Assembly: GCA_947561395.2 (NCBI GenBank)
Contig: OX387192.1
Span: 12,932,221 to 12,996,220 of the forward strand
Length of the DNA: 64,000 nucleotides
Direction: 5' to 3'
Origin: Buxus sempervirens
Taxonomy: Eukaryota; Streptophyta; Magnoliopsida; Buxales; Buxaceae
This document shows positions 36,222 through 64,000 of this stretch, in pieces. The notes under the pieces are model-generated. The model did no database searches. It had not been told where the DNA came from and saw only the letters and a list, made by a program, of their open reading frames with translations. The translations under genes were made by a program, and so were the position numbers. Position 1 is the first letter of the stretch; each line of letters starts with the position of its first letter.

Positions 36222-36287
<66 letters not shown>

Positions 36288-41843: not shown

Positions 41844-42789
41844 AAATAAGAAAGTAACTGAAAATAATTTTCGGTTACATTGATTTTGGAGTAGAACCGA
41901 AAAATACCATTTTATTTTGTAATCGAAAATTAATTTCGGTTACACTAATTTCGGATTCACAATCATGAAAATGCTGGTATGGGCGCAGAGAATCTATCAG
42001 GAAATATTCGTTTTAACTTTATGAACCAAAAATTAATTTCGGTTATTTTAAGATATTTTCTCGATTTACCCCTGATTTGACTAATTTGATTGGATTTGAT
42101 CATTAAGAACAAGTCCGAATTTTCCTGATTTTTTAATTATCTTAATTCATTAAATTGAGATATTTTGGGAAAAATTATTATTTTAATTGAGATATTTTCC
42201 TGGCCGTCCTTTCCGTCCTTTGACTGACATGTGGCAGGTTTATGCCTTGGCACGTGGGCAGCCTTCTGCAATTCCGCCTGAGATTTTGAACTGCTTATAA
42301 CTCTCTTATATCAGCTCTGATTCTGGCAAACTCAGTTGCGCTGGAACTGGGGTCGAGATCCTCTGTCCACTGGGACAGGGTTTTGCAGCAAATTCAAGTT
42401 TTTAGCAAAAATTTGAACTCGCGTCTGGGATCTTAATCTGCTCATATCTCCTTGATTCGGTCCCCGATTTTGGCAAATTCAATTGTGTCGGAATCGTATT
42501 GGGATCCTCTATCCATAGAGATAGAAATAGCAATTAATCTGGGTGTGAGCAGAAAGTCAATTTCTGCTCCCCCGGGACTTGATCTGCCCATAAATCCTTC
42601 ATTTGGGCTTCTATTCCAGCAAACTTAGTTGTGTTGGAACCATGTCAGAAATTGCTATCCATTGAGATAGGGCAAGGTAGCCAACTTGAGCTTGATCAAA
42701 AAGTCAACTTTTGTCCCTTAGGTTTGGCTTTTTAGTTAGGGTTTTCATTTTCGGCACTTCTGGGGGGGTGCAAAAATGAGGTGCTTACA

Positions 42790-44297
42790 CCTGATATCAG
42801 CCTTTATAGTGCATCTAGGACTACCTCTGTTAACATGATTATTGTGCAAAATGCCCTGAGTGAGAAGAATATTATCAACCATAAGCCGACTTGGTATAAA
42901 AGCACTTTGATAAGAACCAACTAGCTCCCCCACAAATAGCTTCAACCTGTTAGCCATAATCTTTGAAATGCATTTGTAAATGGTGTTAACACACGATATG
43001 GGCCTATAATCCTCCACTTTACTTGGATTAGGACATTTCAGGGTGAGAGTAATTAATGTTGAGTTCAGCTATTTCAGCAAGCAACCAGATTGGAACAAAC
43101 TTTAATGGCTTCTATTGTATCATCTCCAACAATACTCCACGCATGCTTAAAGAAACAGGGTGTAAATCCATCAGGTCCTGGTGATTTATTATCCTTGAGA
43201 TGAAACATTGAATCCTTGATTTCCTGGGTAGAAACATCCTTAGAAAGATTTGCAGCATCCGAATCAGATATCTTTCTAAATATGCACTCGTTAATAGTGC
43301 CAATATCCACAGCTTCTGAAGCTTGGCTATCTCCAAGAAGACTAACATAATAAGAAGTAAATCTGATCTTCAACTCATTCCAACCCGAGGTCTTCAATTC
43401 ATTCCAAACTGAGATTTTCGAGCCATCACCCTCAACTAGACTTAGGCTTTTGTTATTCACACGCCTGCAAGTCAAAGCTTTATGGAAGAAAGCTGAATCA
43501 GAATCCCACTCTTTAAGCCATTGAATACGAGACTTTTGTCTTGTTTGAGCTTCAAGATTAGCCGACTTCTTAACAAGCTCCATTGATAGACTCTTCTCTA
43601 GATTTACTAGATGAATACTAGAAGGATTAGCAAATAAGTTCATTTGACATTTTAGCAACTCTTGTCTAGCAACCTCAACCTGGGCCTCCAAATTCCCAAA
43701 TTTTGCTCTACTCCAAGATTTTAAAGCAATCTTAAGTAATTTAAGTTTTTGAGCAAGGACAAACATAGGTGAGCCTTTAACAGTAGTCTTCCAATTCTTC
43801 TCCACTAGGGGGAGAAACTCTTCATGTTGGCACCAAAAATTTAAAAATTTGAAACGTCTAGGCCCCTTGAAAGTATCCTTCATAATTGAAATTACAGTAG
43901 GGCAATGATCAGAAATGGAGGGAGCTTGAAACACTGCTTCTGAACATCCATACTCATCCATCCAAGCCATATTCACGAGAACTCTATCAAGCTTGCACAA
44001 AATTAAATTGTTTCCTGAGCTCTTGTTACTCAATGTATGAAAGAAACCTTGAAACTTTAACTCCATCAACATATTGTTATCAATAAACTTATTGAAATCC
44101 TTTGATGACTATTTATGAATAGCTTTACCACCACATTTTTCAGCATCACATCTGACACTATTGAAATCACCTACTAATAACCAAGGACAAGCAGGGCTCA
44201 TTCCTCTTAAATCATGCCAAACAATCTTCCTTGAGTTGAAATCATTGGCACCATACACAAACAAAACTGCAAATTGCTTCTGATCACTCAACATAAC
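42790..44297 (-). pseudogene. LINE-B ORF2 fragment: endonuclease C-terminus to RT start
   Basis: Minus-strand L1-type ORF2. From 44297 leftwards: WLLVGDFNSVRCDAEKCGG, a stop at about 44108, TLSNKSSGNN, CKLDRVLVNMAW, SISDHCPTVIS, the long helical linker (RQKSRIQWLKEWDSDSAFFHKAL), and the RT entry KDNKSPGPDGFTPCFFKHAW. After a stop and frameshift near 43020-43075 it reads DYRPISCVNTIYKCISK and AFIPSRLMVDNIL, ending at KADI, the RT motif-A entry, where LTR A begins. The rest of RT must lie left of element A, outside the window. Confidence 0.88.
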
Positions 44298-47081
44298 TGT
44301 TAGCACCTCATTTTTGCACCCCTTAAAAGTGCAAAAAACAAAGTTTAGCTGAAAGTCAAACCCCGAGGGGTCGAAAATTTGACTTTTCAATTTGGTGCAA
44401 ATTGGCCACCATACTTCTTCCCATTGGATAGGAAATTCCGACGCGACTCCAACGCAACTGAGTTTGCTCAAATCGGAGTCTAGATGAAGAAGTTATGAGC
44501 CGGTCAAACTAGAGGGGGAGCAGAAATTGGCTTTCTGCTAAAACCCGAGTCTGCTGCCAAACTTTAGTTTAGTGGATAGAGAATTCCAAACTGATTCAAA
44601 TGCCACTGAGTTTGCTCAAATCGAAATAATCTTTGTGTTTGCCTTTTGGCTTTGCAGGTCTTGGCGTTTGCCTGCTTCTGTAATTATCTTTTCTTCTGAT
44701 TTATACCACTCTCTCACTTACTTTCCAAAAAAAAAAAAATTTGGATAAGGGGATTCAAATCACACATTCTAGAAGCATGTGTGACCGCATTTTAATTGCG
44801 GTTTGGCCTAAACCGCTCTTAAAATGCGGATTTGCATTGCCAGCTGTCGCAAGCTGGCGACAGCTAGTAGATTTGTGGAGATTTGCGCACATGGGTGGCT
44901 CGACCGCATTTCAAATGTGGTCAAGGCTAAATCGCACTTTAAATGCGGTTCTAACCAAACCGCACTTGAAGTGCGGTTTTGGACTTTTTTGCCTATAAAT
45001 AGGCATCCAACCCCATTGTTTGAAAGTCCTCTTGAGCCCTGTTGACCCCCTGCCTCTCCAGAGACCTGCAACCTCTCTAAGCCCCTCTCCACTCACCCAA
45101 ACCCAATTTAATCCCTAAAATACCCCTTGAACCTTCCTCTTCATTCCTTTTGCTCCATTTTCACTACCAAGAGAGTTAAGAAGAGGAATTTTGAGAACCA
45201 AAGGAGGATCTGAAGTGCTGTCCACATCAACAGGAGAATCACCACTCATCAAGATAGAATGGTAATAGCAAGGTGAGCCTCCCCTCTACTTTGTATTTGA
45301 CATATATGAAAATCAAGTGGTTCTAACAAGTTTTTTTTAATTCTTTCTAGACCTTGTTTTTACTGTGTTTCTTCTTTTCTAACTTGTTTGGCCCCTCTTT
45401 GTGCATGAAAATGAGACTCCCTTGGAGGGGGCTTCCCTCATACGAAATTATGGGAGGAGGGAGGTTTCACGCAAAGTAAAGGGTCTTAGTTAGACATTTA
45501 TGAACTAACCCTTTTATGTTGGTTTGTTCATTTTATTTTAAAAGAGGGGTTTGTCCTCTTCGAAATCTCATGTACCCCTAAATCTTTCTTCCCATCTTTC
45601 CTTTCTTTGGTTATACGATTATTGCTATGTTTCGTTAGTTAGGCCCAACAAAGAACCCCATGCTTTTAGTCCACATGAATTCATCTTTTAAGTGGTCTAA
45701 AGATTTTAATTCGGTGTTAAGTTGTTTGTTTTACTTCCTAGATTCTCCCTTTTTCTTCAGATTTACTATTAACAGAGTTCTTCTCATATGAGCTGTTCTC
45801 ATGCATGTTTTCTTTTCGGTCTCGTTCAATGCATGTACTTGTTTGTGAGGGCTAGGCATGAGTATAATGGTGAGTTATTTGATTCTAGAGGGAGAATCAA
45901 GCCTCTTTGCCCTTCCATTGAGTTCTTTCAAGAACAAAGCAAGGGGGGATTGTGATTGACACCGAGCTAGGGTACCTCGGACCCTTGTTGAATGCTTTGT
46001 TTGCCGAATAGAGATCAAGATTGATCTTGTTTTGAAGGCTTTAAGGGATGACGCTATTTGAGCCAAGAGAAGAGCATTTTCATCCCTGTGAATGTGCTAG
46101 AAAACCCCAATAGAAGCTGGTGGACATCAAGAGGAACCGGGCGAACCAGACCCCAAAAAGATTTTGGCCAATTTTCGCAACCTGAGCCGAACTGCATACT
46201 TAGTGTGGTTCGGGTTTGACTGCATTTTATATGCGGTCAGGCCTGAACCGCATTTAGTTTGCAGTTCAGCCCATACCACATTATATATGCGGTTTACTTC
46301 TGTAATTAATTAAAAAATTAACTCCCTTGACCCGGTTGGACCCAATCTGACCCGTTTTGATACAATCTAATCCCATTGGGCTTTGTGGGTAAACCCAAGC
46401 CCATTTGAGATAGTGGGCCCATTTGGGCCCACCAAAGGTTTTGTGGGCCTTCCAATGGGGCCCACATTTAATCCAGCCCAAACCAAAGCCCGTCTTCAAT
46501 GAGTGGGATCAAGGCCACTTGGTTAATTGCTCATGGGCCAAACCCCAAGCCCATTGGGCCTTAAAAGCCTTAGTCCACTAATTTTGTAAATACAATTAAA
46601 ACCCAAAGTCAAATAACCAAATCCAAAATGGGTTACCTAATAATCCTGACAGACCTTGGGCTTGACTTAAGCCCAGCATGGAATCTAGTGGGCCTTCCAA
46701 TGGGCCCCACATCTGACCCACTTCACCAAAAAGGATAAAAAGATAAATCAATTAAAATAAAGGGGACCTACACCTTTAGGGGTCCCCGTTCAGACCCAAT
46801 AACATGTGCATATTGGATTAGGAAATTGGGTGAGACTAAGTTGACTTGAACCAGGGAGACCCATGGGACCCGTCAAATCGACGAGGCGGGCCGGGGTGTC
46901 TTCGGACTTCCCCGGATGTAACTGGGAACTTACCTCGAATCTCTAAAAAGTTGTAGACCAATCAAATTAGACCTGGTTAGGCACCCTTGTGTCTGCCTGT
47001 ACCTCTCAGGCAGTGGCGACTCCAAATCTCCTGAGGCACGCGTCCTGCATGCACCTCGTTGTGCGAAAATAGGTGCGCACA
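44298..47081 (+). repeat. solo LTR, Tat/Ogre-like, TSD ATAAC
   Basis: 2,784 bp from TGTTAGCACC to GGTGCGCACA, plus orientation, inserted in the LINE-B endonuclease region. TSD ATAAC at 44293-44297 and 47082-47086. TATA box TATAAAT at 44994. Hairpin clusters with ACCGCAT-type words occur at 44768-44979 and 46190-46300. PBS-like TGGCGACTCCA occurs at 47014-47024 in U5. No internal region, so one LTR remains after recombination. Short ORFs inside are not genes. Confidence 0.92.
44994..45000 (+). promoter_or_regulatory. LTR TATA box (44298 copy)
   Basis: TATAAAT 15 bp downstream of a perfect 10-bp hairpin (44957-44966 with 44970-44979). It sits about 700 bp into the LTR, the expected U3/R position. 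Followed by AGGCATCCAACCCC, a motif conserved in the related LTRs. Confidence 0.7.
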
Positions 47082-47270
47082 ATAACCGCTTGACAATGGA
47101 TAACCTAATCAGAAACAAATATAGGAGTCACTAAAACCTCAATCGAGTTCCACCAAACCCTTGAGAGAATTAGAATAGTTATCAATTACATTCCATGTCG
47201 AGCAAATATTAGCCACCACAGTGGTCTTATTCGCTTGACGAACTTTTGTCTCAAGTAAACCCAATATACT
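47082..47270 (-). pseudogene. LINE-B ORF2 fragment between two solo LTRs
   Basis: About 185 bp of LINE-B endonuclease on the minus strand: GLLETKVRQANKTTVVANI, STWNVIDNYSNSLKG, then after a frame break VIHCQAVML leading across the 44298 LTR junction into SDQKQFAVLFVY. The matching LINE-A segment (ETKVRCGNKAPV, WSSVDNYAKALKG, MIHCQVGIL) confirms the order and shows that the two LTR insertions removed nothing beyond the TSD sequence. Confidence 0.85.
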
Positions 47271-50118
47271 TGTAAGCACCTTATTTTTGCACCCCTGGAA
47301 TTGCTGAAAATGAAAACCCTGGCAGAAAGTCAAACCCCGAGGGGACAAAAAGTTGACTTTTTCATTAAGTGATATTTGGCCACCTTGCTTTATATCATTG
47401 GATAGAGAATCTCGACACGATTCCAATGCAACGGAGTTTGCAGGAATCGGAGTCCGGATTAAGGTTCTGCGGGCAGTCAAACTTGGGCGAAGCCAAAAGT
47501 TGACTTTCTGCCAAAATCCGATCCAAAGGCCTACCCCTAAGTCATGGGATAGAGGGCTCCGATACGATTCTAACGCCACTGAGTTTGCCCAGATCGGAGC
47601 CCGGGTGAAGAAAATATGAGCTGGCGAAGTTTCCGAGCAGCAAAACCGGCGAACTGCGCACGTGGCAAAAAGCTGCACACGTGGCGAGTTGCGCAGAAAA
47701 ATATCTCGGGGATCAAATCCGTAAATATCCAAACATTCAAAATATCCCAGGGACCAATCTGAAAGTATCTGAAAATATCTAAATAAAATAATATTAAACC
47801 TAAATATCCCAGGGACCATATCCTAATTTTCAGATTTTTAAAACAAACGGGCGGCCGCATTAATGGGTTTTTAATCATTTGGTCGCTCAAGCGGGCGTGG
47901 CAGGGGGTATGCGCTCACCTTGAGCTGGGCGCCAAGGTGAGCGGCACCCCCTTTTTTCTGGCCTATATAAGGCCGTGCGAAGTTCAGCGCAGGGGTTGGG
48001 ATTTTTGTTCTCGGGTTGGGGGGATTTTTTTGGAGATTTCGAGCTCCTTCTTCGTCGGGCATAGGTGGTCTTGACCACCCTCTTCCCCAAAGAACAAACC
48101 AGACACTTCTTCCCCCACCTTTCTCGGACCTTTCTTCCCATCCTTGTCCTCCTCTCTTGATACCCAAAGGAAAAGGAGGAGCTTGCCGAGTGAGCCTAAA
48201 GGAGGAGAGTCCAGCCGCTGCTTGAGCTTCAAAAGGGGGAGCCTACCTGCTCACTTCAGAAGGGTGTTCTGACACCCAGTTAATGTTCCCGACCATGCTG
48301 TTTTTTTTGAATATAAGCTCATTTCGAGCATATCATGTCATGATGTTTTACATTCTACCATTTTGTTTACTAATACTGCTTGTGTGATTCGAAGGGGAGC
48401 ATGTTCCCCGTGGTCATTTCATCTTGTGTACCCCATTATAAACCCCCTTGTCCCTTCACTGTTAATTTGTCGATGTGTGATTTTGTGGTTCGGTTTGCGA
48501 TATGTTAGGTTAGGTAATTTCAATGCAAGTCTAAGTGCCTTCTGGGGAGTGGTCGAAGCCCGGGGAGGTGTCCTGGGCATATTATTCGTGAAGCATTTTG
48601 AATGCATGTTTGTATTGTAAGTTTTCTGGGTTTTCAAAACTTGAAATAAAATGTAGTTAGATTAAATCCAAGATTAGTTGGGAGGTGTTCTGAGCATGTT
48701 AGGAGGCTAGTGGAACAGTTACAGACCGAAAAAAACCGGCCAGAGATGGAGATCTAAAAAAAAACAGAGAGTTGAAAATTGCAGTGACCTGCCGCCCATC
48801 TGGCGCCCACCTGGCGCTCACCTAGGAGGTGGGCGCCCCTTTCATCTCACTTCCCGCCGAGCTGGCGCCCACCTGGCGCTCAGCTCGCGCCCACCAAAAA
48901 ACAGGTGAAATTCTGGCGCCCTTCTCGCGCCCATCTCGCGCTCACCTCCTGCCCAGCTCGCGCTCACCTGGTATCGGGTGAGCGCCAGGTCAAAATTTTG
49001 CCCGGATTCTGGCGCCCACCCGGGTACCTCCCCTTGGACCCAGCACAATGAGCCAATTTTTTCTTGATAGGGTGTCAATTTTGTGTATTTCCTTATGTGA
49101 TTATTGCTGAATGTGGGTTTTATTTCCAAACCGAACCGGATGAACCAATAGGGTTCCCGGGTCACCCGGAAACCCAACATGGGCCATGGACCAACCCGGT
49201 CCAAATTGATTTCCGGTGGGCCTTCCAACGGGGCCCACCAAGCCCGACCAACCCATTCATGCTTAAATAAGATAATAAAAGATTTGAGCGGGCCAGACCA
49301 CTTGAGGCCCACCCAAGCCCTAATTGGGCCATGCATGATTAAAGTAAGATATGGTTTGGCCGAGACCACGGGTAGGGCCTATCGGGCCCACTAAGCCCAT
49401 AAACCCGACCAACTTAGGGTTTCCAAACCCTAATTCAGGAAGCCTTGGGCTTTCAAGCCCAAGCCCAGGTAAAGGGCCCCAAGCCCAATGCTTGGCCCAT
49501 TTTGACACAGATAAGAAAGATAAAATCAAAATCACTTGGCAACCAATTGTGGGGCCCACTCAAGGGCCCACAAAGTAATCCCGGCCCGCTTTTGGCATGA
49601 AATCCACTTAACTAATCCAACTTGAACTCTAAAATAAAATCAATTCAAAGTGAGCCAAAATCCAAAGGGCCACACTTGGCCCACCAAGGAACATGCGGGC
49701 CACACTTGGCCCACTAAGGGATACCGTGGGCCTTCCAACGGGGCCCACCCCACCAGGCCCAGATCATCTTAATTAAAAAGATAAAATCAAGTAAAGGGAC
49801 CCACACCACTTTGGCGGTCCCGCCAGACTCAATCAAAATTGCATGCTGGAATAGGAATCGGGTGAGTGAGAGACCAAAGTTGACTCAAACCAGGGAAACC
49901 TATGGGACCCGTCACTTGACGGGGTGGACTGGGGTGTCTACGGACTTCCCCAGACCGCAACCGAGCCCCTACTTAGAATCTCAAAGCCGCAGACCAAAAG
50001 CCTTAGAAGAAGAACTTAGGCACCCGGGTGTCTGCCTGCACCCCATCAGGCAGTGTCTGCCTGCACCCCATCAGGGATACCGTGCGCCTCGTCGTGCGAC
50101 CGAAATCAGGTGCGCACA
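47271..50118 (+). repeat. solo LTR, Tat/Ogre-like, TSD ATACT
   Basis: 2,848 bp from TGTAAGCACC to GGTGCGCACA, plus orientation. TSD ATACT at 47266-47270 and 50119-50123. TATA box TATATAA at 47964. GC-rich hairpin clusters occur at 47912-47943 and 48780-49020 sharing the word GCGCTCACCT. The U5 end carries a 24-bp tandem duplication around GTCTGCCTGCACCCCATCAG (50031-50075) that disrupts the PBS-like motif present in relatives. No internal sequence. Confidence 0.92.
47964..47970 (+). promoter_or_regulatory. LTR TATA box (47271 copy)
   Basis: TATATAA about 690 bp into the LTR, 21 bp downstream of the hairpin whose arms are 47912-47921 and 47934-47943. Followed by GGCCGTGCG, unlike the AACCCC context of the other copies. 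Confidence 0.65.
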
Positions 50119-50765
50119 ATACTCAAATTATTTTTCTTGATAAGATTCTTCACCTCTGCCTGCTGGGATGTATCATTTAATCCCCTAATATTCCACACAG
50201 CACAGTTAAACATTAATATGATGATTAGGAAAGGAAGACCCATCTTTCACAATGGGATTATGCTTTGAAGTAACTTGTTTCCTGGCCTCTCTCATGGCTA
50301 TTTCATCAACAAGTAGAACCTCTTTATTTTTCTTCCTCTTGGATTTAGCTACTACTTTGCCTTCACTACTGGATGAAGAGGATTTGGTTGGTGATAATAC
50401 AGCAAACCTATTAAGACTGTGAGCAATAGACGTAGATATATCATGGTTAACATGTTCAGATCTATTCACTTCTGCCATATCTGAAGGGATGTCCAATTGC
50501 TGGCCCTCTCCCATTGAAGCATTTACCTCTAAGAAGCATTCCTTACCAAGGTCCTTCCCACCAGAAGAAGACTCAATAGGTCCTGTAGATCGAACTCCCT
50601 GAACATTTAAATGCTCATTCTTTGCTGTAACACAACCATTAGAACCCTCCTGGTTAGTAATAAATACCTCCACCTGATTAGCATCCAATAATGAATGATA
50701 GGAATCCTTATCGTTACCAGCAAACATACTAAAGGTTGCTAGGTTTAGATTAAACCCAAAATAGG
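50119..50765 (-). pseudogene. LINE-B ORF1 C-terminus and ORF2 N-terminus
   Basis: ORF1 tail on the minus strand from about 50765 to 50206: acidic/Ser-rich, then KSKRKKNKEVLLVDEIAMREARK, directly matching the tail of LINE-A ORF1. ORF2 begins near 50210 (CAVWNIRGLNDTSQQAEVK) and runs to the LTR junction at 50119. The DUF4283 and CCHC part of ORF1 is missing: near 50755 the sequence changes into LTR-like sequence, so LINE-B is 5' truncated or was cut by recombination there. Confidence 0.85.
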
Positions 50766-51265
50766 ACATATGGGCTATCCCTTAGGCAATCTTGGACCCT
50801 GTGAGTCTTCCAAACGGGACCCTCCTACAGACTAAGATCACTTAATAAAGAAGATAAAATCTAAACGGGACTTACGCCACTTAAGTGGTCCCTACATAGA
50901 CCTAATCAATGAGTGCATATTTGTTTAGGATGGGTGAGATAAAGCAACTTGACTCATAACCAGGATGACCCATGGGACCTGTCATCCGACAGGGCAGATT
51001 GGGGTGTCTACAGACTTCACGAACGGTAACTGGATATTTAACCAGAATCTCAAGCTGCAGACCATATAATAGATAAACACTAGGCATCCAAGTGTCTGCC
51101 TGAATCCAATCAAGCAGTGGCGACTCCTCATTCCCCTACTTCCTTTCCTAGTCCTGAAAGCATGCGACTCTTCATGTTTTCACTGGATAACACGCTAGGA
51201 CATTTTCCTAAAGGAGGCACGCACACATGCACCTCCTAACAAAGGTGTGACCGTAGATCGATGCA
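50755..51265 (+). repeat. degraded Tat/Ogre-like LTR fragment (3' part)
   Basis: About 500 bp collinear with the last third of the 44298 and 47271 LTRs: GGGACTTACGCCACTT, GACCCATGGGACCTGTCA, GGGGTGTCTACAGACTTC, AAGTGTCTGCCTG, AGCAGTGGCGACTCC (PBS-like motif at 51118-51127) and CATGCACCTCC. More diverged than the solo LTRs, so older. The LTR 5' part is absent; the left edge touches LINE-B ORF1. Confidence 0.7.
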
Positions 51266-52402
51266 TGCATAGCCTGGAGACTTCGCTGAGGATAGTACTC
51301 AACCCACTCAAAACTGGTTAATAAGAGTCAACCTAAGGGGGGTATAGTTGGTTTAGAAAGTTTCTAGCTTATTTTAGTGGTGCGGAATTTAAGTAATTAC
51401 ATGATTTGGGAAATTTCTGTCAAATAGGACTATAATTGCCTAAGGAAACTGTATCTTAAGAAGGACCACTTGTGACCCCTCCAGTTTCTTGGAAACTTTC
51501 TTGGAACATTGATTTGCTTTCTAATTCCTCACTTTACTATACCAGGTAGTGTAATGCTTTCTACCAATAAGTACATGGATTCAACTCACCCAATTAGACA
51601 CCTCACTCAACTACTTGCACACATGTGCACTCACAAAACACCGTGAATGGTTTACTGCTTTAATAAAAACTGTGTAGGGTGACACACGCGAGGGAAACTG
51701 CGTGAATGATCTGAGCTAACATGAGATATGTGGTTACAGTACTCTTCTTTACCAAAACGAAGACCTCTTTAGTAGCCACCCTTCTTTATTGTATAAACAA
51801 ATTTTGGGATGGTATTAGCTTCACGCGCCTGTGGCTTGCTGGAGGGTCTAGTACTTGGCTCAGACCCTTGTAGGTGTTTGTCTCAGGCTGGGTATCATTT
51901 TCCCACCTATTACATTCGATACACCCCGGTTTGCGAATGTGATTGAATGTGAATACAAGAAGAGTAAAATCAACTTAAAACCCAATAGTTCATCAGGGGC
52001 ATGTTTACACTTGCCATAGCCCGACAAATGAGAAAGAGCCACGTGGTATCAACATGGGCTAGTTTCACTAGTAAAGATACGTAAGCATACGCACGTGCCT
52101 AAGCAGGAAAACCATACCCATACGTAGGGGAGTGACATCATCATCAACATGGGGCTAACAATTGAGACCATCTTAACAAACAACGGAAACAAGGAAATCA
52201 TTTGTTGGGATCGTGGCAAGTAGTTGTTTTACCGGAATGAAGTAGGAAAGATTGATAACTCCTGGAACCAACATGAAGATCGTGCAAACATGGGACGGTA
52301 AGCAACCGTCAAAGCTTGGCTATAAAAGGCATAGTTGCAATCATCCACTCAACCGCAACCGGTTACTATGATTATAATCCGATCATCTGTGATCACTATC
52401 TA
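51266..52402. other. unassigned repeat-derived DNA with a TATA-like box
   Basis: No ORF with recognisable homology. TATAAAAGG at 52321-52329 is preceded by a long AT/GC-mixed tract and could be the promoter of a decayed LTR whose end would lie near 53765. I see no TSD or TG/CA boundaries that settle this. Confidence 0.35.
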
Positions 52403-52410
52403 GTCTCCTA

Positions 52411-53198
52411 TAGGGTTGCAACTCGGTGCAGTTTGGTTCGGGTTGGCCTCAACCCAAGACCAAACCAAGGTTACTTATGGTGGGCCCAAAACCAAACCGA
52501 ACCGACCTCAGAACCGAAATACACAAACCGAATACCGAATCGATTATTTAAAGAAAACCTGTAACCCAACCCAAACTGAACCAAATTGAAAAATTCGGTT
52601 TGGTTCGGTTTAGTTTGGGTCATTTTCCTATACTTAAAACCTGTTATCAAGAGAGAGATTCCCACTTTTATCCCAAACAAAAAAATTTTAAGAATACACA
52701 CAACAAATTTAAACGATCATCACTTACATGCGGTCAAATCCTTTAATTAGCTCACATGCATACATAAGATGGAGCAAAGAGCTTAGAATCCCAAGTCATA
52801 TGTTAATTGTTTTGGATCGCACTTTTGAGCTCATGAATCAATTTAATAATTAACTACAAAGATTTATAAAATAATAATCTTATTCATTATTTTATAACTT
52901 ATAATTTATAAGTTATATTTTATTATTACAACTTTATCTATTGTATATTATATATATATATATATATATATTATATTTCAGTTCGGTTCGGTTCGGTTTT
53001 ACACTTAGGAAATTCGGTTTGGGTTTCAGTTCGGTTTGGTTAACCCAAGCCTTCAACCCAAAACCGAACAAAACAAATTCGGTTCTCTATTTTTAGAACC
53101 AAAACCTACCCAAAGACTATATAACCCAAACCAAACTGACCCAAAGTCGGGTTGGACCGGTTCGATTTCAGTTTTAACCGATTCGAGTTGCAACCCCA
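52411..53198. mobile_element. hAT-like non-autonomous element (MITE), 8-bp TSD
   Basis: 788-bp element with terminal inverted repeats (GGGTTGCAACTCG at the left, CGAGTTGCAACCC at the right) beginning TAGGG. It is flanked by GTCTCCTA (52403-52410) and TTCTCCTA (53199-53206), an 8-bp duplication with one mismatch, the size hAT transposases make. Subterminal regions are dense in CGGTT/AACCG words (TTCGGTTCGGTTCGG near 52979-52996). A (TA)n run lies at 52947-52972. The ORFs inside are by-products of the repeats; no transposase is encoded. Confidence 0.8.
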
Positions 53199-53770
53199 TT
53201 CTCCTACACCCACATTGTAGCAAGAAAGGATAATTTAGGATTCCTCTCACTGTTTTCTATCACAGTGACACTTTAGGATCACTATTTACTCCGATCAAAG
53301 TGAAGAACCTGCCACCGGGAAGGACGTCGAGGCCACCCCTGTTTTCTAATCTTGTGCTTCGATTATTGCTACAAGGTTACGAACAGCTGGTACGGAAGCT
53401 ATCTTTGGTTAAGCCAGGTGATTAGCAGAACGTCGGATAAATAGTATTCTTGGGCGAATCATCGAATCAGCTTTACTAACAGACGCCCCCTATATCCCTA
53501 CCTTATACTCTGATTACGTCTATAAGGCCAGGGGAGGCCGATACTACTAGCATTGATGATTTTCATTTGTTTTATTTCTTTTGAGTTATTTGGAGGCTTG
53601 TCATATTCGACGGTTGCGTCTTTGGCGACCGATATCTGAATATAATACTTCGTCATTGCTGTCTGTCATTTTCAAAGACGAACAAGAATCCAAACGAAGA
53701 CCAAACCCCTAGTTTTCATTATTTCGTCTGATCAATTTTATTTCAAGTGACTTGCAGTATGGTTAGACCA
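53199..53770. other. unassigned stretch left of element C leader
   Basis: No coding capacity recognised. Just after it, at about 53768-53790, the text CCAACTCCGATTTAGATTC resembles a decayed tRNA-Arg-type PBS, and the following GACCCTACCC matches the leader of element B. This stretch is thus probably the 3' end of the 5' LTR of element C, too diverged to bound. Confidence 0.35.
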
Positions 53771-54248
53771 ACTCCGATTTAGATTCGGAACAAATGCTCG
53801 GGGTTATGACCCTACCCAAATCTTGTATGGACAGATACTGGCACACCCGCACATAGACACATCACCCCTACTGCCACGTGTCAAGCCAGGTCAAATTTGG
53901 AAGGAACAGGGCAGCAACCCCCACCCTTTTGCATAATTGAGTAAACCCTAGACTCTAGGCTACCCTAGTCCCAAATTAAGAAGCCTACCCAAATTTGATT
54001 AGGGGAACCACCCCAGATCTATACATTAAGTCTTATGAGCCATGGGCTTTGACCCATTTAGTCCGCTGGAAGCACTCTAAGCCAGGGTTAATCTTTTAGA
54101 AGATGAAAGCCAGCCAGATCAGACAAACAGGGGAAAACAAGCCAGATCAGAACAAAGGTTTATGAAACCCTAGAATTGGGCCTTTTTAGGCTACCCTTGT
54201 TGAAATTAAATCTATCCCTTCTTGGGGTTCTCGAAAACTCCAGGATTG

Positions 54249-57200
54249 TGTGCGCACCTGATTTCGGTCGCACGACGAGGCGCAAGCAAAATGATACGTG
54301 CCTCGGGATTGTTTGGAATCGTCACTGCCTGATGGGGTGCAGGAAGACATCTGGGTGCCTAAATTTGTCTATTAAGGCTTGGTCTGCGGCTTGAGATTCT
54401 AAGCAAGTTCTCGGTTACGGTCCGGGAAAGTCCGTAGACACCCCGGTCCGCCTCGTCAAAAGACGGGTCCCATGGTTTCCTTGGTTTGAGTCAACTTTGG
54501 TCTCTCACTCACCCGATTCCTATTTCAGCATTCAATTTGGTTAAGTTTGGCAGGACCGCCAAAGTGGTGTGGTCCCTTTACTTGATTTTATCTTTCTTAG
54601 CTTAAAGTGATGTGAGACGGATTAGGCAGGCCCCGTTGGAAGGCCTGCGGATCCCTTGGTGGGCTTCAGTCTAGCCTAGGAAGCCTTTTGGGCTTGGTTC
54701 AAATGAATTGATTTTATTTAATGGTTCGAGTTTGATTAAATTTGATTTCCATGCAAAAAATGAGTCTGGATTGCTTTGTGGGCCCGTGAGTGGGCCACAT
54801 AGTGGGTTGCCAAGTGATTTCAGATTATCTTGGTTAACTGTGCCAAAAAGAGCTAAGCCTTGGGCTTGGGGCCCTTTACCTGGGCTTGGGCTTGAAAACC
54901 CAAGGCTTCCTGAGTTAGGGTTTGGAAACCCTAAGTTGGTTCGATTTAATGGGTTTTAGCGGGCCCGATCGGCTCTACTCGCAGTCTCAGCCAAGCCAAA
55001 CCTAGATCTAAACATACATGTTACCCCAGTTGGGCTTTGGCGGGCCTCAAAGGGTCTGGCCCACTCAATTCTTTTAATTATCTTATTTAAGCACAATAAG
55101 TTTGTCGGGCTTGGCGGGCCCTGTTGGAAGGCCCACCGGAAATCAATTTGGACCGGGTCAGTCCAAGGCCCACCTTGGGTTTCCGTGTCACTCGGAAATC
55201 CTACTGGTTCGCCTGGATTGATCAAACAACTAAAAAAACAGCAAAAGATCAGAAAATGGCAAGAAAAAACAATTTGGCAGTGTAGCCGGCCTAAGATGTC
55301 AGTTACACACAGGTCTCGGTGTATCCGGCATCTTTTGTCAGCTACGAATACAGCTCTGTTGATCCGACCTGAGTTGTCAGATCAACATACAGAAGCTGTT
55401 TTGTGATTTTTGCATTGGGGTTGGGTTTTTGGGTCTTCTAGGGTGTTTCAGCATTTTCGTGGGCCCCTGTGTGGGCCCATAGTGGTTCAGATGAAGCCAC
55501 ATGGCTTCTCTAGAAGGGGTTTCCAACACTAAAGGCAAATACGGGGTCCCAGGGAGGTATCTCTTCCTTCCCAATCGAGACAACGGGTGAGTAGGAGTCT
55601 GGGTATCCCTAGTTTAGTCCTATGCCTTCACAAGAAACAGGGCTTCACATGTATGAAATAGAGCAAACCAAAAACACACTTTAAATCTAAGATTGAGCTG
55701 ACATGAACAAGATGGACAACTTAGAACATCAGATCCGATTTTCACGCATGTAAATTCATGCTGGATAGTGTTATACACAACTACCTAGACATGTTTCTAG
55801 CAAGCAAACAGGCCAGCATGCAAGCACAAGCAAGGAGAAAGGAAAACATGCTGCGGTGAGGCGGGGACAACCACTATTATGGGGGGTTTCAGGCATGCTA
55901 GAAGGGGGAAGGGATCATGCCAATAGGGTCCTTTGGTGAGGGCATACTCTATGCATGTTAGTCACAAGATCAAGGGCTGAGAAGGGACCGGCACCCTTCC
56001 CATAACAGTAGCCGGAAACATGAAAAATCAAGGCATGGGAAAGAGGAACATGCAATATTAGAGAGGGGAAAGATAGTCTAGCCTATACGTGCACATTCCA
56101 CGGATCAAGAAACATTAAGAACAGCAACATCACACAAAGAAGAAAAAACAAAATGGCTCCATGAGAGAAAGGATAAGAGGGGGGTTTACATAGGGTATAA
56201 GGGATGAACACACAAAGGGAACATGCTCCCTTAAAAATAGAATCAAACATGCAATACAACAACCAAAAAAAAAACACCAACCATAGAACTATATGGGAAG
56301 ATCCCTCATCTTCCCTTTGGGATTATACGTGTACTCCCTTACCTTGGGAGGTCTTCATATCTCCAAGAACAAGAAGCAAGCACTTACAACATAGGCATGA
56401 GGACAAACTTTATATTAAGAAGAAACCAACACTGAAAAAGAGACCTCATACTCACATGTGTTCAATGGAACATGGTAAGAAACCTTACCCTTGGGTTTTA
56501 AGACCCTTTTTGAGGTGTGTAGACACCTCTTGATAGCAAAGGCACGAGCTGGAGGCTCCCCTCCAAACAGTAGCAGCAGCTTCCTCCTCTTGGTTGTGAG
56601 AAAATGGAGAAGAAAAAGGGAAAAGAGGGTAAGGATGGTCAAGGAAGGGAAGCTCTTGGGTTTAGGAAGCAATGGGGGGTGAGAATGGGTGGTTTCGTAC
56701 CGGTGGTAATGGGGAAGAAGAAGTGGAAAAGGGCCAAGAAGAGCCAACCCCCGAAATGGGGCTGCTGTTGCCTTTTTATAGCAAAATTTTTGTATTCGGC
56801 ATTTAATGTCGGATACATTACACTTCCTTTGTATCCGGCATTTAATGTCGGATACACTAAGCTTCTTTTGTATCCGACATTTTATGTCGGATACAAGACA
56901 TAATAATTTCGAAAATTAAATGCCGTCACGAATTTGTCAGGGAATCAGCGCGAATCTTGCGGGCGGATCTCTTTGTATCCGATGAATAGTGTCGGATATA
57001 CACAAGGGTACGTGTATCTGACATATTCGATCGGATACAAATAAAAAAATTACGGATTTGCCCTTGGATATTCGCAGATTTGGTCCCTACGAAATTTTGC
57101 TTTAAACCCTGGGATATTTTGCATGTTTGGATATTTACGGATTGCCCCTCGAGATATTTTCTTGCGCCACTTGCCACGTGTGCGGCTTTTTGCCACGTGT

Positions 57201-57589
57201 GCAGCTTTCTGGGTTTTGCTGTTTGGAAACTTCGACAGCTCATATCTCCCTCATCCGGGCTTTGATTTGAGCAAACTCAGTTGCGTTAGAATCGTATCGG
57301 AGCCCTCTATCCAAAGGCATGGGGTTAAGCACCTGGATTGAGGTTTAGCAGAAAGTCAACTTTCGGCTCCCCTCAGGTTTGATCAACCCGCAGAACTTTT
57401 ATCCGAACTCTGATTCCAGCAAACTCAGTTGCGTTGGAACCGTGTCGGGATTCTCTATCCATTGAGATAGGTCAAGGTGGTCAACTATCACCTGATCAAA
57501 AAGTCAACTTTTTGTCCCCTCAGGGTTTGACTTTCTGCCAGGGTTTTCATTTTCAGCACTCCCAGGGGTGCAAAAATAAGGTGCTTACA
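54249..57589 (-). repeat. solo LTR D, Tat/Ogre-like, TSD GATTG
   Basis: 3,341 bp, minus orientation (element sense starts TGTAAGCACC at 57589 and ends GCGCACA at 54249). TSD GATTG at 54244-54248 and 57590-57594. Inserted in the leader of element C. TATA box on the minus strand at 56771-56780. Hairpin clusters: 56791-57040 (GTATCCGACAT type) and 55274-55390 (GTAGCCGGC, GTATCCGGC and TTGATCCGAC). Its U5 PBS-like motif is decayed (TGGAATCGTCA, 54314-54324). Confidence 0.92.
56771..56780 (-). promoter_or_regulatory. LTR D TATA box
   Basis: CTATAAAAAGG on the minus strand followed by CAACAGCAGCCCC. The first upstream hairpin (56791-56817) begins 11 bp away. Confidence 0.7.
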
Positions 57590-58148
57590 GATTGCATTCT
57601 TTTTTAGCTTTGTAAATATCATGTAGATTTTTCCCAAGCTGGAAAGTTGTGAGTTTTCCTATGGTTAGACACCGAGAGCAGATGAAAGATAAAGATTGAT
57701 CAGGACTTGGACGTGCTTCCTTACACAAGTATGTCTAGAAGTTTCGCCTCAATAGGCGCTAACCCTTAGGATTGCACACACACCTTATGTGCTTGGTTTT
57801 CATTTCCGGCACGTTTTTAATTTGGTTTTCTGTTTTGTCAAACCCTGGCAGGAACCCAAGACAAAACCCTGGCAGGAACCCAAGACATGGTGATGTCCAT
57901 CCCTTTTATTTACCTTTTGCATTTCCTTCTTAATGCATTAGATTGATTGACAGTTCCTACATGGACCTCCCAAAATGATTTGGGACACTAATTGGATAGT
58001 TAGGCACATAGCATCATCATCATCATCATCATCTGAGAGAACCAAGTTCCCTAGGATAGATAAATGCGCTTGGGACACCCCCTGGATCTATTCTTGGACA
58101 AGACAACTCTAAGGGGATAAGCAGATTAAGCGAGAGGCACGGTACCAC

Positions 58149-59384
58149 ATGGGACTCACTTTGTCCTTGTTAAACGTGCCAATAAATTGGGACATGATCC
58201 AGGCATCTTTGCTATTTTGGGATCCCCAATTATCAGTCTTTCGATTTGGGACTGTAGAGTTGGCACCCACAATCGAGGAGTTTGACCTACTCCTTAGGTT
58301 TAGCGACCATGGAGAACCAGCTAGGGAAGAATTCAAGACCTTAGGAGGTGAAAAGTCATTCACGAGGGTCTCCAAAAATTTCCTAGCTAAAAAGATAAGG
58401 AAAAAAAAGCAGGAAAGACCTTGTGTTTGGTGGGACACCTTCACCATCGTAGTTATTGCATAAATCTTTTTTCAAACTAGGGGAGACACCATTAATTAGC
58501 CCTCATGGAGATTGTGGATCAATTGTCGACTGGGTACCGAATCGTGCAACTGATACTCGCTTAATTGTATCATGCCCTTACTTCGTCCAAGAATGGAACT
58601 AGAAGGTTCCAGGGGTGTGCTCCCCTCCTTCACATGTGGATGCAAGACCACCTGAAGGTGGCTAAACCCATCAGTGATAGATACGGGATAGTCCGTGACA
58701 ACTTCACGTGCATGGCCTGAAGAGAGATACACCCAGACTTGCCAATTCTAGAGGAGTGGTTGAACCATTTTCTCCACTTGACTGGAGATGCAAACGTTAG
58801 ATGGTGGGGGACTTTCCATTTCACATACACCTCCATTTTGACCTTCAAAGATATGAAATGCCTGGCTGTAATCGGCCTCACCAACGCTGTGCTGTACTAT
58901 CCAATTAAGGTTTTGAAACAGTTTGGGAAACCACAGGGAATCCTGTTTAAGAATGACGTGGCATAATGGAATTGAGGCGGCATCTTTTGGCAGAATGGAA
59001 AACTGTGCAAGTGCACTAGAAAGACATATTCTCGAAAACCCACCTTCAAGAATACGAGCAATGGACGGCCCAGGAATTTGGCCATGGTGGCCCCCGGCTC
59101 TTCAGACCATCACATAGGAGGACATTCTAGTTCTACCGAGATGGGGTGGCCAAACTGTAGGAGATCCACTCCCATATCCATTTAGCTTATGTCGAATCGG
59201 AACGGGAGAGTAGACAGGCTAATGTAGCTCTTCAACAAGAAATGGACACCGTTCATAAGCATGCGGATGAGGACCAACGTCTGTGGAACAAGCTTCTACG
59301 TGTCTTAAGGAGGCAAGATGTGTCCTCCCATTATAATGATGACCAACCTAACTAGCCTTTGGCTTTGTTGTACTTAATGTTGAC
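58149..59384 (+). pseudogene. ORF1-like protein of element C (plant-mobile-domain-like)
   Basis: Tat/Ogre elements can carry an extra ORF upstream of gag. Here 58149-58463 encodes a 104-residue stretch with FWDPQLSVFRFGTVELAPTI and EEFDLLLRF, the N-terminal signature of plant mobile domain/DUF7745-type retroelement proteins. Other frames continue the same protein: LHMWMQDHLKVAKP (about 58640), WGTFHFTYTSILTFKDMK (58810-58860), VLKQFGKPQGI (58910-58945). Many stops and frameshifts. The function of this ORF is unknown. LINE-D cuts it at 59385. Family assignment is by eye, moderate. Confidence 0.6.
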
Positions 59385-59883
59385 TTTTTTTTTTTTTTTT
59401 GAAAAGTATAAGTAATCTATTATATTAAAATAAGCTTATACAAAACTGTACAAAATATGCCTAATAAGCATAACCAGATTCTACTCCCCTAGGACTACTA
59501 GGAAATCAAACTACCATGCATTAGAATGTGTACATATATAGCCATGATCAAAATATGTGGAGCAAACGCATCCAAAGTCGCCTTCTTGCAGCTTGTTAAC
59601 CTCTTAGCTTCCATGATAGTTTCCAATTCTCCATTACTTGCCTAGTAAGAGGGTTGTCGGCAATCACTATATCTTCCATATGGAATCCATCTTGAACATC
59701 AGCAACTATGAATCCCAAGACCTTCCTTGCCGGTAAGTAGCTTGTCTTAAATATTCTTCTATTTCGTTCCTTCCAAATGTGGTACGCAGCAACACCCAAG
59801 CTCATCTTAAACAAATTGCTAGTAGGTGAAGAACCTGAGTAGTTTGATGCTGCCCAATCAATGAGATCATTCCAATTTTGGTT
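59385..59883 (-). mobile_element. LINE-D: 5'-truncated L1-type fragment
   Basis: The minus-strand 3' end of a LINE: T-run of 16 at 59385-59400 (the poly(A) tail), then 3' UTR, then from 59596 rightwards the ORF2 C-terminus (VAAYHIWKERNRRIFKTSYLP, LTRQVMENWKL), paralleling LINE-A YHIWRERNRRIF. It is cut at 59883 by LTR F. Target duplication not identified. Confidence 0.85.
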
Positions 59884-61726
59884 TGTGAGACCCCAGATTC
59901 TTGACCATTTGCTTAAGTGCTAATCAAGGGGTATTAGGTAACCCTAACAATTTTTTATTTTCGTTGTGAAGGTGAATTTGGAGAAATCCAAATTTGAAGC
60001 CAACTGAGTGGCTAAGCCAAGGCCTACCCAACATGCATGGGGTAAAGTATCTCTTTCATTGGAGAAATTCCTAAGTTATTAAGCAAATTATTCTATTAGA
60101 TGGAAAATGGCTAAATGGTAAATTTTGTGTGTAGTAGAAGGAGTGTCAAGGTTGTAATTTCTTGTGTCTTGATGGGAGAAGGGCAAACTTGGAAGATATG
60201 CAAAATGTCATTTGGGGGAGAAATTAGCTAAGTATAGGAAAGGGGAGTTTTGCCCCATATGATTGAAACACAACCCTATTCCCATCTTCATCTTCTTCTT
60301 CCACTCTCTCTTCTCTTCTCCTCATCACATTCTCCTTGTTAAGAAACGTGGAGAGACTCTTGCAAGAAAAGAAGAGGAAGAACCCAAGTTTGGTATTTTC
60401 GTTTGGTGGAGATTAGAGCTTTGTGAAGTAAACTCCAAGGAAGCAAGGGTGTTGTTCGTGGTTGCATTAGGAGCAAGAGATCTTGTTGGTTTGCTTGCTA
60501 GAACATGTAAGCAACACTCTCCCAACCTAGATTTCGTTTTCTCATTTTCATATGCAATGTGGGGAAAAATTGGGGGTTTTGTGTAAACTTGATTATCTTT
60601 GCAAATAGGAGAGGGATTTGTTGGGGGTTTGGTAAATAATAGGTAACTACACATGTTAGAGACAATTTAGAGACCAAAACCATAGAAAAGAGAGAGATTT
60701 GAAAAACCTTAGAAAATCACAAAATTTGGATTTTTCACGACCTAGGAAATCTTGCCAGGGCGCCCGACAGAGCGCTCGAGCGATGTCGAGCACCCATTCT
60801 TATTCCCTAGTTGCAGGCCTGCCACTCGTTGGCGCTCGGGTGCCCTATCGAGCACCCCGCCTGTGTTTTTTTTTAAAACCCAGAATCTGAGAGTTGAAAT
60901 TTGGCCTCAGCTGGGCGCCCAAACTAGCTCTCGAGCGAGCACTCAGACGCCCATGCCCAGATTTGAGTATTTTTAGATTTTAGTACAAATCCAACTACAG
61001 GTTGTTTTTATTTGAATCCAACCAATGTACAAATAGGATTTAGGTGTCTAGGAAGTGTACACACTGGAATCAACTCAAAATTCCAAATAACGAAGATTTT
61101 GGGTAAGTTCTACTGAAATAGGTTTCCTGGGAAGTTTCTGTCCCAGATTGCTATAGAAGTAGGGTAATTTAATTCTACCGCTTGAAACACGTTCCAAATG
61201 ATCCTTGGAAGTAGAAAACCAAATCCAAATTAAAGTTGTACATGTTTCCAAATATTTGGGGTCTAGGTTGCCCAAGTGAGGTGTGAAATGCAAAACTTAA
61301 TACCATGAATGTATTTTATTGTTAATGATTATTGTCGTAAGCATGTGATATATTGTGAAGGGCATTGGCCCGAATTGATTTGCATGATATGAAGGGCATT
61401 GGCCCAGATATTGATATGTGTATGGAGGGTAGTGGCCCGGTTCCAAGAGATGCTGTACGAAGGGCAGTGGCCCAAAATTGACTCGAGTAAGGCCATGAGC
61501 TACCCTTGAGATTATACATGCATGATGGCATGGTTTGACACATGGAATTGATTGAATGAACACTTACATAATGAACAATCATAAGTTATGGATCCATAAA
61601 TTTAAGTAGGTGTGTTTGTATATAATGCCATGACCAAGTGTTATTGTTCTTGTGTTACTGTATTGCTTATAACATTCTGGCACCAAGCAACATCGGTGGT
61701 TGATGCCCATTGCTACGGAGAATCGG
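59884..61726 (+). repeat. LTR F: second-family-like LTR, right part displaced
   Basis: Begins TGTGAGACCCCAGATTC, comparable to the TGTAAAATCCCAAATTTT start of the second-family LTR. It contains a GC-rich island (60755-60955) with GCGCTCGAGCG and GAGCACCC words and a short tandem array with AGTGGCCCGG-type cores (61355-61500). LTR E interrupts it at 61727 and the remainder lies beyond the window. Family membership is tentative. Confidence 0.5.
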
Positions 61727-64000
61727 TGTAAGCACCTTATTTTTGCACCCCCGAAAGTGTCGGAAATGCAAACCCTAGCTAAAAAGTCAAACCCTAAGGT
61801 TACAAAGGTTGAATTTTTGACCAAGTGATAATTGGCCACCTTGATTTATCTCAGTGGATAGAGAGTCCTGACACGGTTCCAACGCAACTGAGATTGTTGG
61901 AATCGGAGTTCGGATGAAGGATTTGCAGGCCGGTCAAACTTGAGGGGGAGCAGAAATTGACTTTCTGTTAAATCCCAGATCAGCTGCTTAAACTAGCTCC
62001 AATGAATAGAGGACTCCGATATGGTTCTAATGCAATTGAGTTTGCCAGAATCGGAGTCCAGATGAAGAAGATAGAGCAGTTGAAGTTCTTGGGCAGCAAT
62101 GCCGGAAACTGCACACGTGGCAAAAAGAGCAGAAAAGCAGCAGACGAAAATATCTCAGGGGAAAATCCGCAAATATCAGAACTTTCAAAAATATCTGGAG
62201 GCATATCTGTAATTAATTGGTGGAAAATCTCTAAATATCAAAAGATCAAAAAATATCTTGGGGCAAATCTGCAAATAATCCAGGGGCAAATCTGCAAATA
62301 TAAAAAATTTGCCTTTTTTAATTCGACATATGTGGTCGGATACACATATTTTTCTTCATATCCAAAATTATATTTCGGATACAAAAGATTTGCTCGTCAG
62401 ATACTGTCAGATTCTCTGACAAATTCACTGACAAAATTGAATTTTTGAAATAATTATGTCTGTATCCGACATTTTATATCGGATACAAACAACACATAGT
62501 GTATCGACCTCCATGGTCGGATACACGCAACATATAGTGTATCCGACCATGGAGGTCGGATACAAAAATTTGCCTATAAAAAGGCAAGCAACCCCCCTAG
62601 CCGAGGGTTGCTGGCCCCTGTTCCTCCCCTCCCTCACTGATTCAAACCCTTCTTCTTCCACCTCTCTTCACCCATACACCCTCCCCACACCACCTTAAGG
62701 CTTTGTAACTCTCCTTTTCTCTCTTCCTCTTCTTTCTCATCCAATCAAAAGGAAGAGGACTTGCTGTTGGTGGTGAAGAAGGAAGTTCCAGCCCTTGTTC
62801 CGGCTTCAAGGAGGTCCTCAAACTTCACACAAGGGTTCTAAAACCTCAAGGTAATGTTCCTTATGGCACCTTGTTGAATATATGTGAAAATGAGTTCATT
62901 CGGAGTCCATTAAGTTGATTGGTTTGTAAGAAAGGTTCATTGCTTGTTTCCATCCTTTCTCGGCTCTCTTTTCTCTCATGTGTGACCCCCTAAAGGTAAG
63001 CTAATTCTAATAGGGGAAGAAGGACCATACGTTTGTGGTAAGGGAGGATGAGTGATACTTTTGCACACTTTTAAGAGCCCTTTGGGGGTGCTGTTTTATT
63101 ATGCCTTCATTTCATTTAAGAGGGGAGTGTGTTCCCCCGTATCATACTCCAATGTACCAACACAACCCCTTTTATCCCTTCTCTTACTTACTTTGTTTTA
63201 TCTTCATGCTGGTTAGTTCTAGTGTGATTTAGAATCTGATTTCAGCATGCTTTAAAGTCCATGTAGTATGCATGCATAAGTTTATGGAACCTCATAGGTA
63301 TGACCCCTTTCCCCACCACCACTTAGCTACTGCTGGCATCTTTAGTATGTCATCTTTTCCCCTTTAATGTCTGCTGTTCCAGCATGTTTCCTCGCCCCAG
63401 ATATCCCAAGTTCATCTCACATGCACCTTGTTGGAAAGCATATTAGTCCTCTCTTTGATAGGCTATCTCATGTCCACCCCTTAGAAAGCATGTGCACTTG
63501 AGCACTCACCCACTTGCATGCTACTTTTACTTGCTAATTTGTATGGTTTTTGTGTTCCATGAAATCTGTCCAATTTGTTTGAGGTGTTGTTGTTGAATGA
63601 GTTGCATGAGGAGACCAAGAGGGAGATTTTCCCTCTTCTTTATACCACTGTGGGCCCACATAGGGGCCACAGATTTTTTGGAATACCCTAAGAAGCCCAG
63701 GAATCCGAACCCACTTAAAAAACCATGAAAAAGCCTTCTCCAATCTGATCCGACAACTCAGGTCGGATCAGTAGAATAGTGTTTGTAGCCGACCAGGGTT
63801 GTCGGCTACACTGGCTTCTGTGTGTAGCTGACATCCAAGGTCGGCTACGTTTACTTTTGTGCGTAGCCGACAACTAAGGTCGGCTACACTGTTAAAATTC
63901 CTATTTTCTCATTTCTTTGTTTCGTGTAACATTTTTTGCTCTTAATTAAACCAAATGAGCCAATAGGGTTTCCAGGTCGCTTAGAAACCCAAAATGGGAC
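61727..64000 (+). repeat. LTR E, Tat/Ogre-like, plus strand, cut by window end
   Basis: Starts TGTAAGCACCTTATTTTTGC, left TSD candidate ATCGG (61722-61726). TATA box TATAAAAAGG at 62575. Hairpin clusters at 62325-62564 (GTATCCGAC type, with a perfect 11-bp stem at 62538-62548 and 62554-62564) and 63745-63888 (CTGATCCGAC and GTAGCCGAC). Runs off the right edge about 0.5-1 kb short of full length, so solo or paired status is unknown. Confidence 0.88.
62575..62584 (+). promoter_or_regulatory. LTR E TATA box
   Basis: TATAAAAAGG followed by CAAGCAACCCCCC, 11 bp downstream of the perfect hairpin ending at 62564. Confidence 0.7.

Follow-up and report, generated by a model that had tools for sequence, protein, structure and literature searches.

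Palindromic CCG-N11-CGG arrays at two sites of long retrotransposon LTRs in Buxus sempervirens carry lineage-specific words

VANDALs are DNA transposons, and among the retrotransposons the U3 regulatory boxes of Tnt1 are repeated and rapidly changing in an otherwise conserved long terminal repeat (LTR). Here we report on arrays of short palindromes in LTRs of Buxus sempervirens, as seen in a stretch of 64 kb (the window, i.e. the whole stretch of DNA that was analysed) and in the whole 676.5-Mb genome, to which all genome-wide counts refer; one array lies just upstream of the TATA box and the other in the transcribed part of the same LTR. In the Arabidopsis VANDAL anti-silencing system the VANC21 motifs form dense arrays, which precede one gene of the element and lie inside introns of further genes, and they diverge between families (PMC5735166); the targets of VANC21 and VANC6 have different motifs (PMC5735166, PMC10398659). 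The heat-responsive element in the ONSEN/COPIA78 LTR evolved by duplication of a shorter motif (PMC5059998). Among plant Ty3/gypsy elements, Retand falls in the Tat clade (PMC6317226), and for its TRP28, encoded by an antisense open reading frame (ORF), DNA binding is predicted and a regulatory role has been suggested (PMC11963269). Work on palindromes as insertion targets was set aside, since it concerns insertion sites with a weak preference and not arrays inside LTRs (PMC6911290).

The Buxus arrays resemble the VANC/VANDAL system in that a motif is dense in non-coding DNA and differs between related families, and also in layout, with two arrays and candidate splice donors ahead of the second. 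They differ from it in three respects: VANC motifs run in one orientation whereas the units here are palindromic, with both orientations in each unit; an element-encoded VANC binds its motif and takes away methylation, whereas the reader here is only putative; and the sites here lie in a retrotransposon LTR and are fixed to the TATA box. Changeable repeated boxes would be a likeness to the Tnt1 U3. As in ONSEN, a putative factor site is repeated inside the LTR, but the ONSEN factor is a host heat-shock factor with one motif type, and the part of the source at hand describes neither a second matched array nor lineage-specific switching of letters (PMC5059998). Retand TRP28 illustrates a possible kind of reader for arrays like these; the available part of its description mentions no LTR binding site (PMC11963269), and Transposase_28 was not found in the ORFs searched here. 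Among the papers listed in a literature search, none had a title or a beginning of its abstract that describes such arrays in LTRs, which is not proof of absence. LTR-borne binding arrays and VANC-like diverging motifs are already known, and the present arrays would be a variant of these.

Paired hairpin clusters, which an earlier note on this window had reported, were confirmed in their places in four LTRs (A, B, D and E; Table 1). They are built from a single site type, which in LTR sense reads NCCGYZ-N7-ZYCGGN and is 19 bp long, with an invariant CCG-N11-CGG and two variable positions, Y and Z; a few units in these arrays have lost a base. The words are ACCGAA in A, ACCGCA in B, and TCCGAC, TCCGGC or GCCGAC in D and E. 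The window holds 15 CCG-N11-CGG, 14 of which are inside the named clusters, and each of the other spacings from 3 to 24 occurs 0-10 times. With one core mismatch tolerated, the first 2400 bp of 28 LTRs contain 175 units vs 11.2 after dinucleotide shuffling. Start distances between CCG and CGG were also counted up to 69. In 30 D-type loci the distance 14 accounts for 144 cases and no other distance for more than 84; in 20 LTRs sampled by their 5' end the corresponding counts are 161 and 81.

For the whole genome we searched for exact palindromic words, allowing any spacer from 3 to 15 (to 13 for ACCGAAA), and the reversed patterns served as control. Over four words and any allowed spacing this gave 27,173 sites, i.e. 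12,382 for CCCGTA (control 1,255), 5,874 for ACCGCA (control 47), 6,959 for TCCGAC (control 303) and 1,958 for ACCGAAA (control 44). Among the matches listed, 50 distinct places for each word and all on one contig, the span was exactly 19 bp in 50/50, 47/50, 48/50 and 49/50, respectively (194/200 together). The six-letter pattern ACCGAA (4,139 sites; control 1,279) was not used; other, unrelated repeats dominate its matches, most of them 21 or 26 bp long, and 19-bp spans are rare among the matches listed, while the seven-letter arm ACCGAAA removes nearly all of these repeats. Repeats of this kind are found at 52430-53200 of the window, with many AACCGAA/TTCGGTT words that lack the 19-bp spacing, and it is repeats like these that swamp the pattern genome-wide. 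A CpG ratio of 1.61 in the units vs 0.60 elsewhere was discarded as evidence because the units are picked by CCG/CGG. Outside this genome, no copies were found for two patterns in viral contigs or for one pattern in prokaryote genomes. Taken together, the CCG-N11-CGG arrays are a real, genome-wide and geometrically strict feature.

The position of the upstream array relative to the promoter is narrow. The unit nearest to the promoter is centred 23-26 bp before the TATA box in 47 of 53 rows, or 46 of 52 distinct LTRs, since the set has LTR D twice (wD and L001), and in the remaining six rows it stands at -62/-63, i.e. one 39-bp unit further out. For A, B, D and E the last unit centre is at -24, -25, -23 and -23, which bears out the earlier observation that the upstream cluster ends close to the TATA box, and the same distance is found in lineages (A, B, D/E and TGTTAGCACCTG) that share only 60-68% identity over the first 450 bp. 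Intervals between units are 39 bp in 105 and 28 bp in 54 of 250 cases; the 11-bp gap between the two periods would be about one helical turn. The downstream array sits 0.8-1.6 kb into the transcribed part. Candidate splice donors (AAGG followed by a GT-like sequence) were seen at +277 to +293 from the TATA box, ahead of the second array, in nine of 16 LTRs examined (A, B, D, E, L053, L057, L059, L060 and L075; L numbers denote our loci), and the downstream array may therefore be intronic.

How often both arrays occur was seen in several sets of LTRs. The pattern for the LTR 5' end has 3,687 exact matches in the genome (control 0), and the first 20 of these, 16 of them from one family (TGTTAGCACCTG), form the 5'-end sample. 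At least two units in both arrays are present in 13 of the 20, and a single downstream unit in three (L067, L071 and L072); L062 and L065 are without any units of the CCG-N11-CGG type, and L066 has units downstream only, the TATA box of L065 and L066 not being recognised by the pattern used. L076 has an upstream array, and since the downstream array scored belongs to the nested LTR L075 it was not counted as having two; past the nested insertion, units of the TCCGGC type reappear. Among ten further loci, covering the first 1.5 kb only (L051-L060, where L051 and L052 overlap), all but L058 have upstream units, and of four picked loci that all have an upstream array (L053, L057, L059 and L060) a downstream array is present in two and absent in two. 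Finally, 30 D-type loci were found by similarity to the promoter of D, which is itself L001, and the TATA box was recognised in 29; an upstream array, for which the promoter query selects, is present in 28 of these, a downstream array, which lies outside the query, in 26, and both in 25.

The words of the two arrays largely agree within lineages. Specifically, when upstream and downstream arrays of six lineages were compared at Y and Z, the match was 0.83 within vs 0.29 between lineages, the best of 720 pairings. For LTRs A-E, k-mer sharing between the two clusters of the same LTR ranked first among 120 pairings at k=6 as well as at k=7, and second at k=8; the agreement within lineage also holds on word positions alone, with fewer cases. 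The comparison of within-LTR with between-LTR similarity that the earlier note had proposed as a check thus speaks for a word that is shared within an LTR and differs between lineages. The word is, however, lineage-specific rather than copy-specific as had been claimed: the TCCGAC/TCCGGC type is common to D, to E and to all 28 further D-family loci that were scored. Moreover, neither array can be a recent copy of the other, because the five spacer bases keep an array-specific sequence, which differs between both arrays of one LTR and recurs for each array across the D family (commonest spacer TTAAA upstream and ACTCA downstream). From cluster 1 to cluster 2 the identity of C and D is 37-62% per 200-column window, and the block between the arrays aligns poorly in pairwise comparisons, except for parts of D-E; the claim that the DNA around the clusters is conserved thus holds for the outer LTR and not for the part between the clusters.

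We consider it moderately probable that a dimeric DNA-binding protein, which would act at the promoter, binds the palindromes of both arrays. A homodimer with sequence specificity would read the half-site N-CCG-Y-Z, with the halves opposed at the fixed CCG-N11-CGG distance and a unit period of 28 or 39 bp. The upstream array would be docked 23-26 bp (unit centre) before the TATA box, where the bound protein would recruit the promoter or hold it open, and the downstream array would serve this protein as another binding site within the gene, with an enhancer or anti-silencing role. If the reader protein, or the partner of a lineage, shifted its Y/Z preference, both arrays would follow, and we propose that the arrays agree within and differ between lineages because both followed such a change. 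Of the roles suggested earlier, protein binding is favoured because of the fixed 19-bp palindrome, the fixed 23-26 bp to the TATA box, the 28/39-bp repeat and the lack of a G.U excess in the stems (see below). We infer protein binding, the reading of both arrays by one dimer, an effect in activation or protection, and a reader encoded by host or element.

Several observations weigh against this explanation. At the outer base (X) the two arrays match less well than at Y and Z (rank 12 of 720), ACCGTA or ACCGTG is a frequent reading in downstream arrays of the CCCGTA family, and in the D group there is no correlation between the arrays in A or G at Y (rho 0.05, p 0.81; 28 rows with LTR D twice). 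No more than some four to six lineages are independent. For the D family (n=29 including D, picked by similarity) the majority fractions are 0.97 for the outer arms, 0.90 for the CCG core, 0.895 for the centre, 0.886 for the linker and 0.84 for upstream DNA, so that the core is scarcely above the centre or the linker; in 13 TGTTAGCACCTG LTRs the values are 0.94 for the core, 0.87 for the centre, 0.84 for the linker and 0.85 for upstream DNA, and the signal of core conservation is weak. Downstream, each D-family unit has paired outer arms of its own around a centre that does not pair, and for a plain binding site neither would be required. Finally, the predicted reader protein was not found in the ORFs searched of one element interior.

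This interior, between L068 and L069 (L081, 7.7 kb, plus the end of L069), carries no array: L081 has four scattered units, two of which are copies of the same repeat, and L069 has none past its LTR. The element has a gag ORF (PF03732, E 8e-12), and a domain search with ten of the 26 L081 ORFs (at least 80 amino acids) and two L069 ORFs returned gag only and no DNA-binding, pol or Transposase_28 domain; therefore the host or another, autonomous element would supply the reader. The C-terminal CCHC-like motif of gag recurs in a second ORF; this motif (AELLPTLL...CxYHxGAPGHxTxxCW) is common to two adjacent ORFs on the minus strand of L081 (6168-7475 and 5275-6033), which looks like a partial duplication of gag. 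Extra ORFs are described for the Tat clade, with a plant mobile domain in 57% of Ogre and Transposase_28 in 23% of Retand (PMC6317226). A tentative extension, which we regard as possible though improbable, is that the arrays are the retrotransposon counterpart of VANC: a dimeric protein of autonomous elements would read the YZ code of its own lineage at both arrays and activate or un-silence its own LTRs only, code changes would split the superfamily into mutually deaf lineages, and solo LTRs would be dormant but readable promoters.

The main rival concerns RNA hairpins in the downstream array. In its full form the clusters would be hairpins in the genomic RNA, the upstream one at its 3' end (U3) and the downstream one near its 5' end, with the shared words letting the ends pair or one protein bind both; we hold this to be unlikely. 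All six folded stretches (four downstream and two upstream) beat their shuffles, with z from -5.0 to -17.5, but such folding is expected of any palindrome array. In the stems on the sense strand, G.U mispairs number 59 vs 95 A.C upstream and 28 vs 36 downstream, and since selection on RNA should favour G.U, pairing in the sense RNA is not favoured in either cluster. The arms of the D family upstream units pair at offsets 6-13 nearly as well with arms of other units as with their own, as expected for a consensus half-site, and at offsets 4-5 own pairing is 74 vs 55% and 49 vs 37% across units; because of this pattern the upstream array looks like repeated binding sites. Downstream, the outer arms of the D family pair mostly within the unit (98% own vs 32% cross at offset 11, and 87% vs 27% at offset 12), and the centres pair below chance (3, 20 and 20%), so that the unit may be described as a stem of about 10 pairs with a 7-nucleotide loop. 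One two-sided change, T-A to C-G, is found in a downstream stem of this family. LTR A also has unit-specific arms downstream, but the CCCGTA family lacks them (17% own vs 26% cross at offset 11), and neither the fixed TATA distance nor the rigid 19-bp spacing has an evident reason in RNA. Thus, of the RNA-structure role suggested earlier, what stands is the unit-by-unit pairing of downstream outer arms in the D family and LTR A, and as judged from these pairings some lineages may have a further constraint, on structure, in the downstream array.

We regard as unlikely, too, a common origin without co-evolution, according to which each lineage descends from a founder LTR whose two arrays had newly arisen from a single one by duplication or gene conversion, the resemblance persisting since. 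Agreement within a family is indeed partly inheritance, A or G at Y varies out of step between the arrays of the D group, and the LTR middle diverges as a block from array to array, so that recombination could move both arrays together. However, the upstream TATA distance is constant in lineages as different as those given above, and for this reason the positions of the arrays probably predate the words; the array-specific spacers are a further point against it. That the arrays are by-products of neutral template switching in replication or reverse transcription, which makes or perfects palindromes, is very improbable: the downstream array of LTR A, whose palindromes are unit-specific, very long and almost perfect, would fit, but the single span of nearly all listed sites, the one TATA distance and the same dinucleotide at two distant sites are left without an account.

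The layout is not common to all long LTRs of the window. Of the five LTRs for which it had been claimed, A, B, D and E have it, and LTR C has another motif type with one upstream hairpin of another word, which rules out one hairpin class for all five. L062 and L065 are relatives of C (88 and 94% identical over the first 450 bp), and they have neither CCG-N11-CGG units nor a comparable upstream array, only a downstream array of another word; all three have the outer LTR of D in common (84-86% over the first 450 bp). The C-type downstream arrays consist of GCGCYCACC/GGTGRGCGC words that are palindromic in places (L062 1370-1600, L065 1230-1520, and LTR C as in Table 1) and are apparently another code. 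LTRs F and G are without units of the CCG-N11-CGG type, though F has a TATA box, and so the claim for every long LTR fell. Upstream of the TATA box of F there is a (TA)n run together with direct repeats rich in purines (TTTAAGAGAGGAAGAGG-like). In L058, a TGTAAGCACCTC LTR, another palindrome (CTTAACCCTTAAG and variants) occurs four times about 240 bp upstream of TATA, the last CTTAACCCTTAAG-like copy standing just before TATA, i.e. another promoter array at the same place. Since the array types at the promoter are unrelated in some lineages, the suggested replaceable cassette survives at the level of array type; as a cassette within conserved DNA it is not supported, for the whole LTR middle diverges and, in the D group, A/G at Y does not follow.

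Table 1. LTRs of the window and their arrays (window positions; unit positions relative to TATA).
Feature	Position	Strand	Remarks
LTR A, piece 1 (U3, promoter, leader)	40757..42791	minus	
LTR A, piece 2, past an insertion	36774..37560	minus	
LTR A upstream array, ACCGAA	41850..42050	minus	units -24, -89, -192 from TATA at about 41842
LTR A downstream array, ACCGAA	37140..37255	minus	long unit-specific palindromes; RNA fold z -17.5
LTR B, solo LTR	44297..47081	plus	target site duplication ATAAC both sides; LTR end motifs
LTR B upstream array, ACCGCA	44765..44982	plus	unit centres -200, -81, -53, -25 from TATA
LTR B TATA box (CTATAAA)	44993..44999	plus	read in sequence
LTR B downstream array, ACCGCA	46185..46302	plus	28-bp period; RNA fold z -10.4
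LTR C, solo LTR	47271..50118	plus	target site duplication ATACT; motif type GGCGCYCACCT, outside CCG-N11-CGG set
LTR C downstream array, GGCGCYCACCT words	48780..49022	plus	
LTR D, solo LTR	54249..57589	minus	target site duplication GATTG both sides; LTR ends
LTR D upstream array, TCCGAC/TCCGGC	56788..57042	minus	39-bp period; last unit -23
LTR D downstream array, decayed	55272..55392	minus	single unit passes unit filter; RNA fold z -5.0
LTR E, cut by window end	61727..64000	plus	
LTR E upstream array, TCCGAC	62320..62566	plus	last unit -23 from TATA at about 62574
LTR E downstream array, TCCGAC/GCCGAC	63745..63892	plus	39-bp period; RNA fold z -10.6
LTR F of nested element, comparison LTR without units	34608..36773	minus	
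LTR G, partner of F, comparison LTR without units	25920..28047	minus	

LTR A is interrupted twice, by an insertion (about 37560-40757) and by the full-length element with LTRs F and G, which are 91.7% identical to each other; this element is flanked by CAAGG. TG...CA ends, 5-bp target duplications and Retrotrans_gag are criteria for plant Ty3/gypsy LTR retrotransposons, and these traits are present here (the duplications in B, C and D, and Retrotrans_gag in one element). Tat/Ogre is the label that the earlier note gave to these LTRs; the criterion for Tat/Ogre is an additional RNase H (aRH) together with the position in a tree of reverse transcriptase, RNase H and integrase (RT-RH-INT; PMC6317226). 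Elsewhere in the window, a fragment of a DUF7745 protein (PF24924, E 9e-9) lies between D and E (58113-58460), and two neighbouring ORFs on the minus strand (11152-12741 and 14559-15839) have reverse transcriptase (PF00078) and DUF4283 domains, which we take to be of the long interspersed nuclear element (LINE)-like kind.

The arrays provide a concrete and testable code, i.e. CCG-N11-CGG with variable Y and Z, fixed to the TATA box and with thousands of sites in one genome. If a protein reads this code, we would learn by what means a retrotransposon family reserves its promoters for itself, and both the rise of new LTR families and their escape from silencing would become directly testable. 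Moreover, the code yields predictions as to the solo LTRs that could act jointly as enhancers in the vicinity of host genes.

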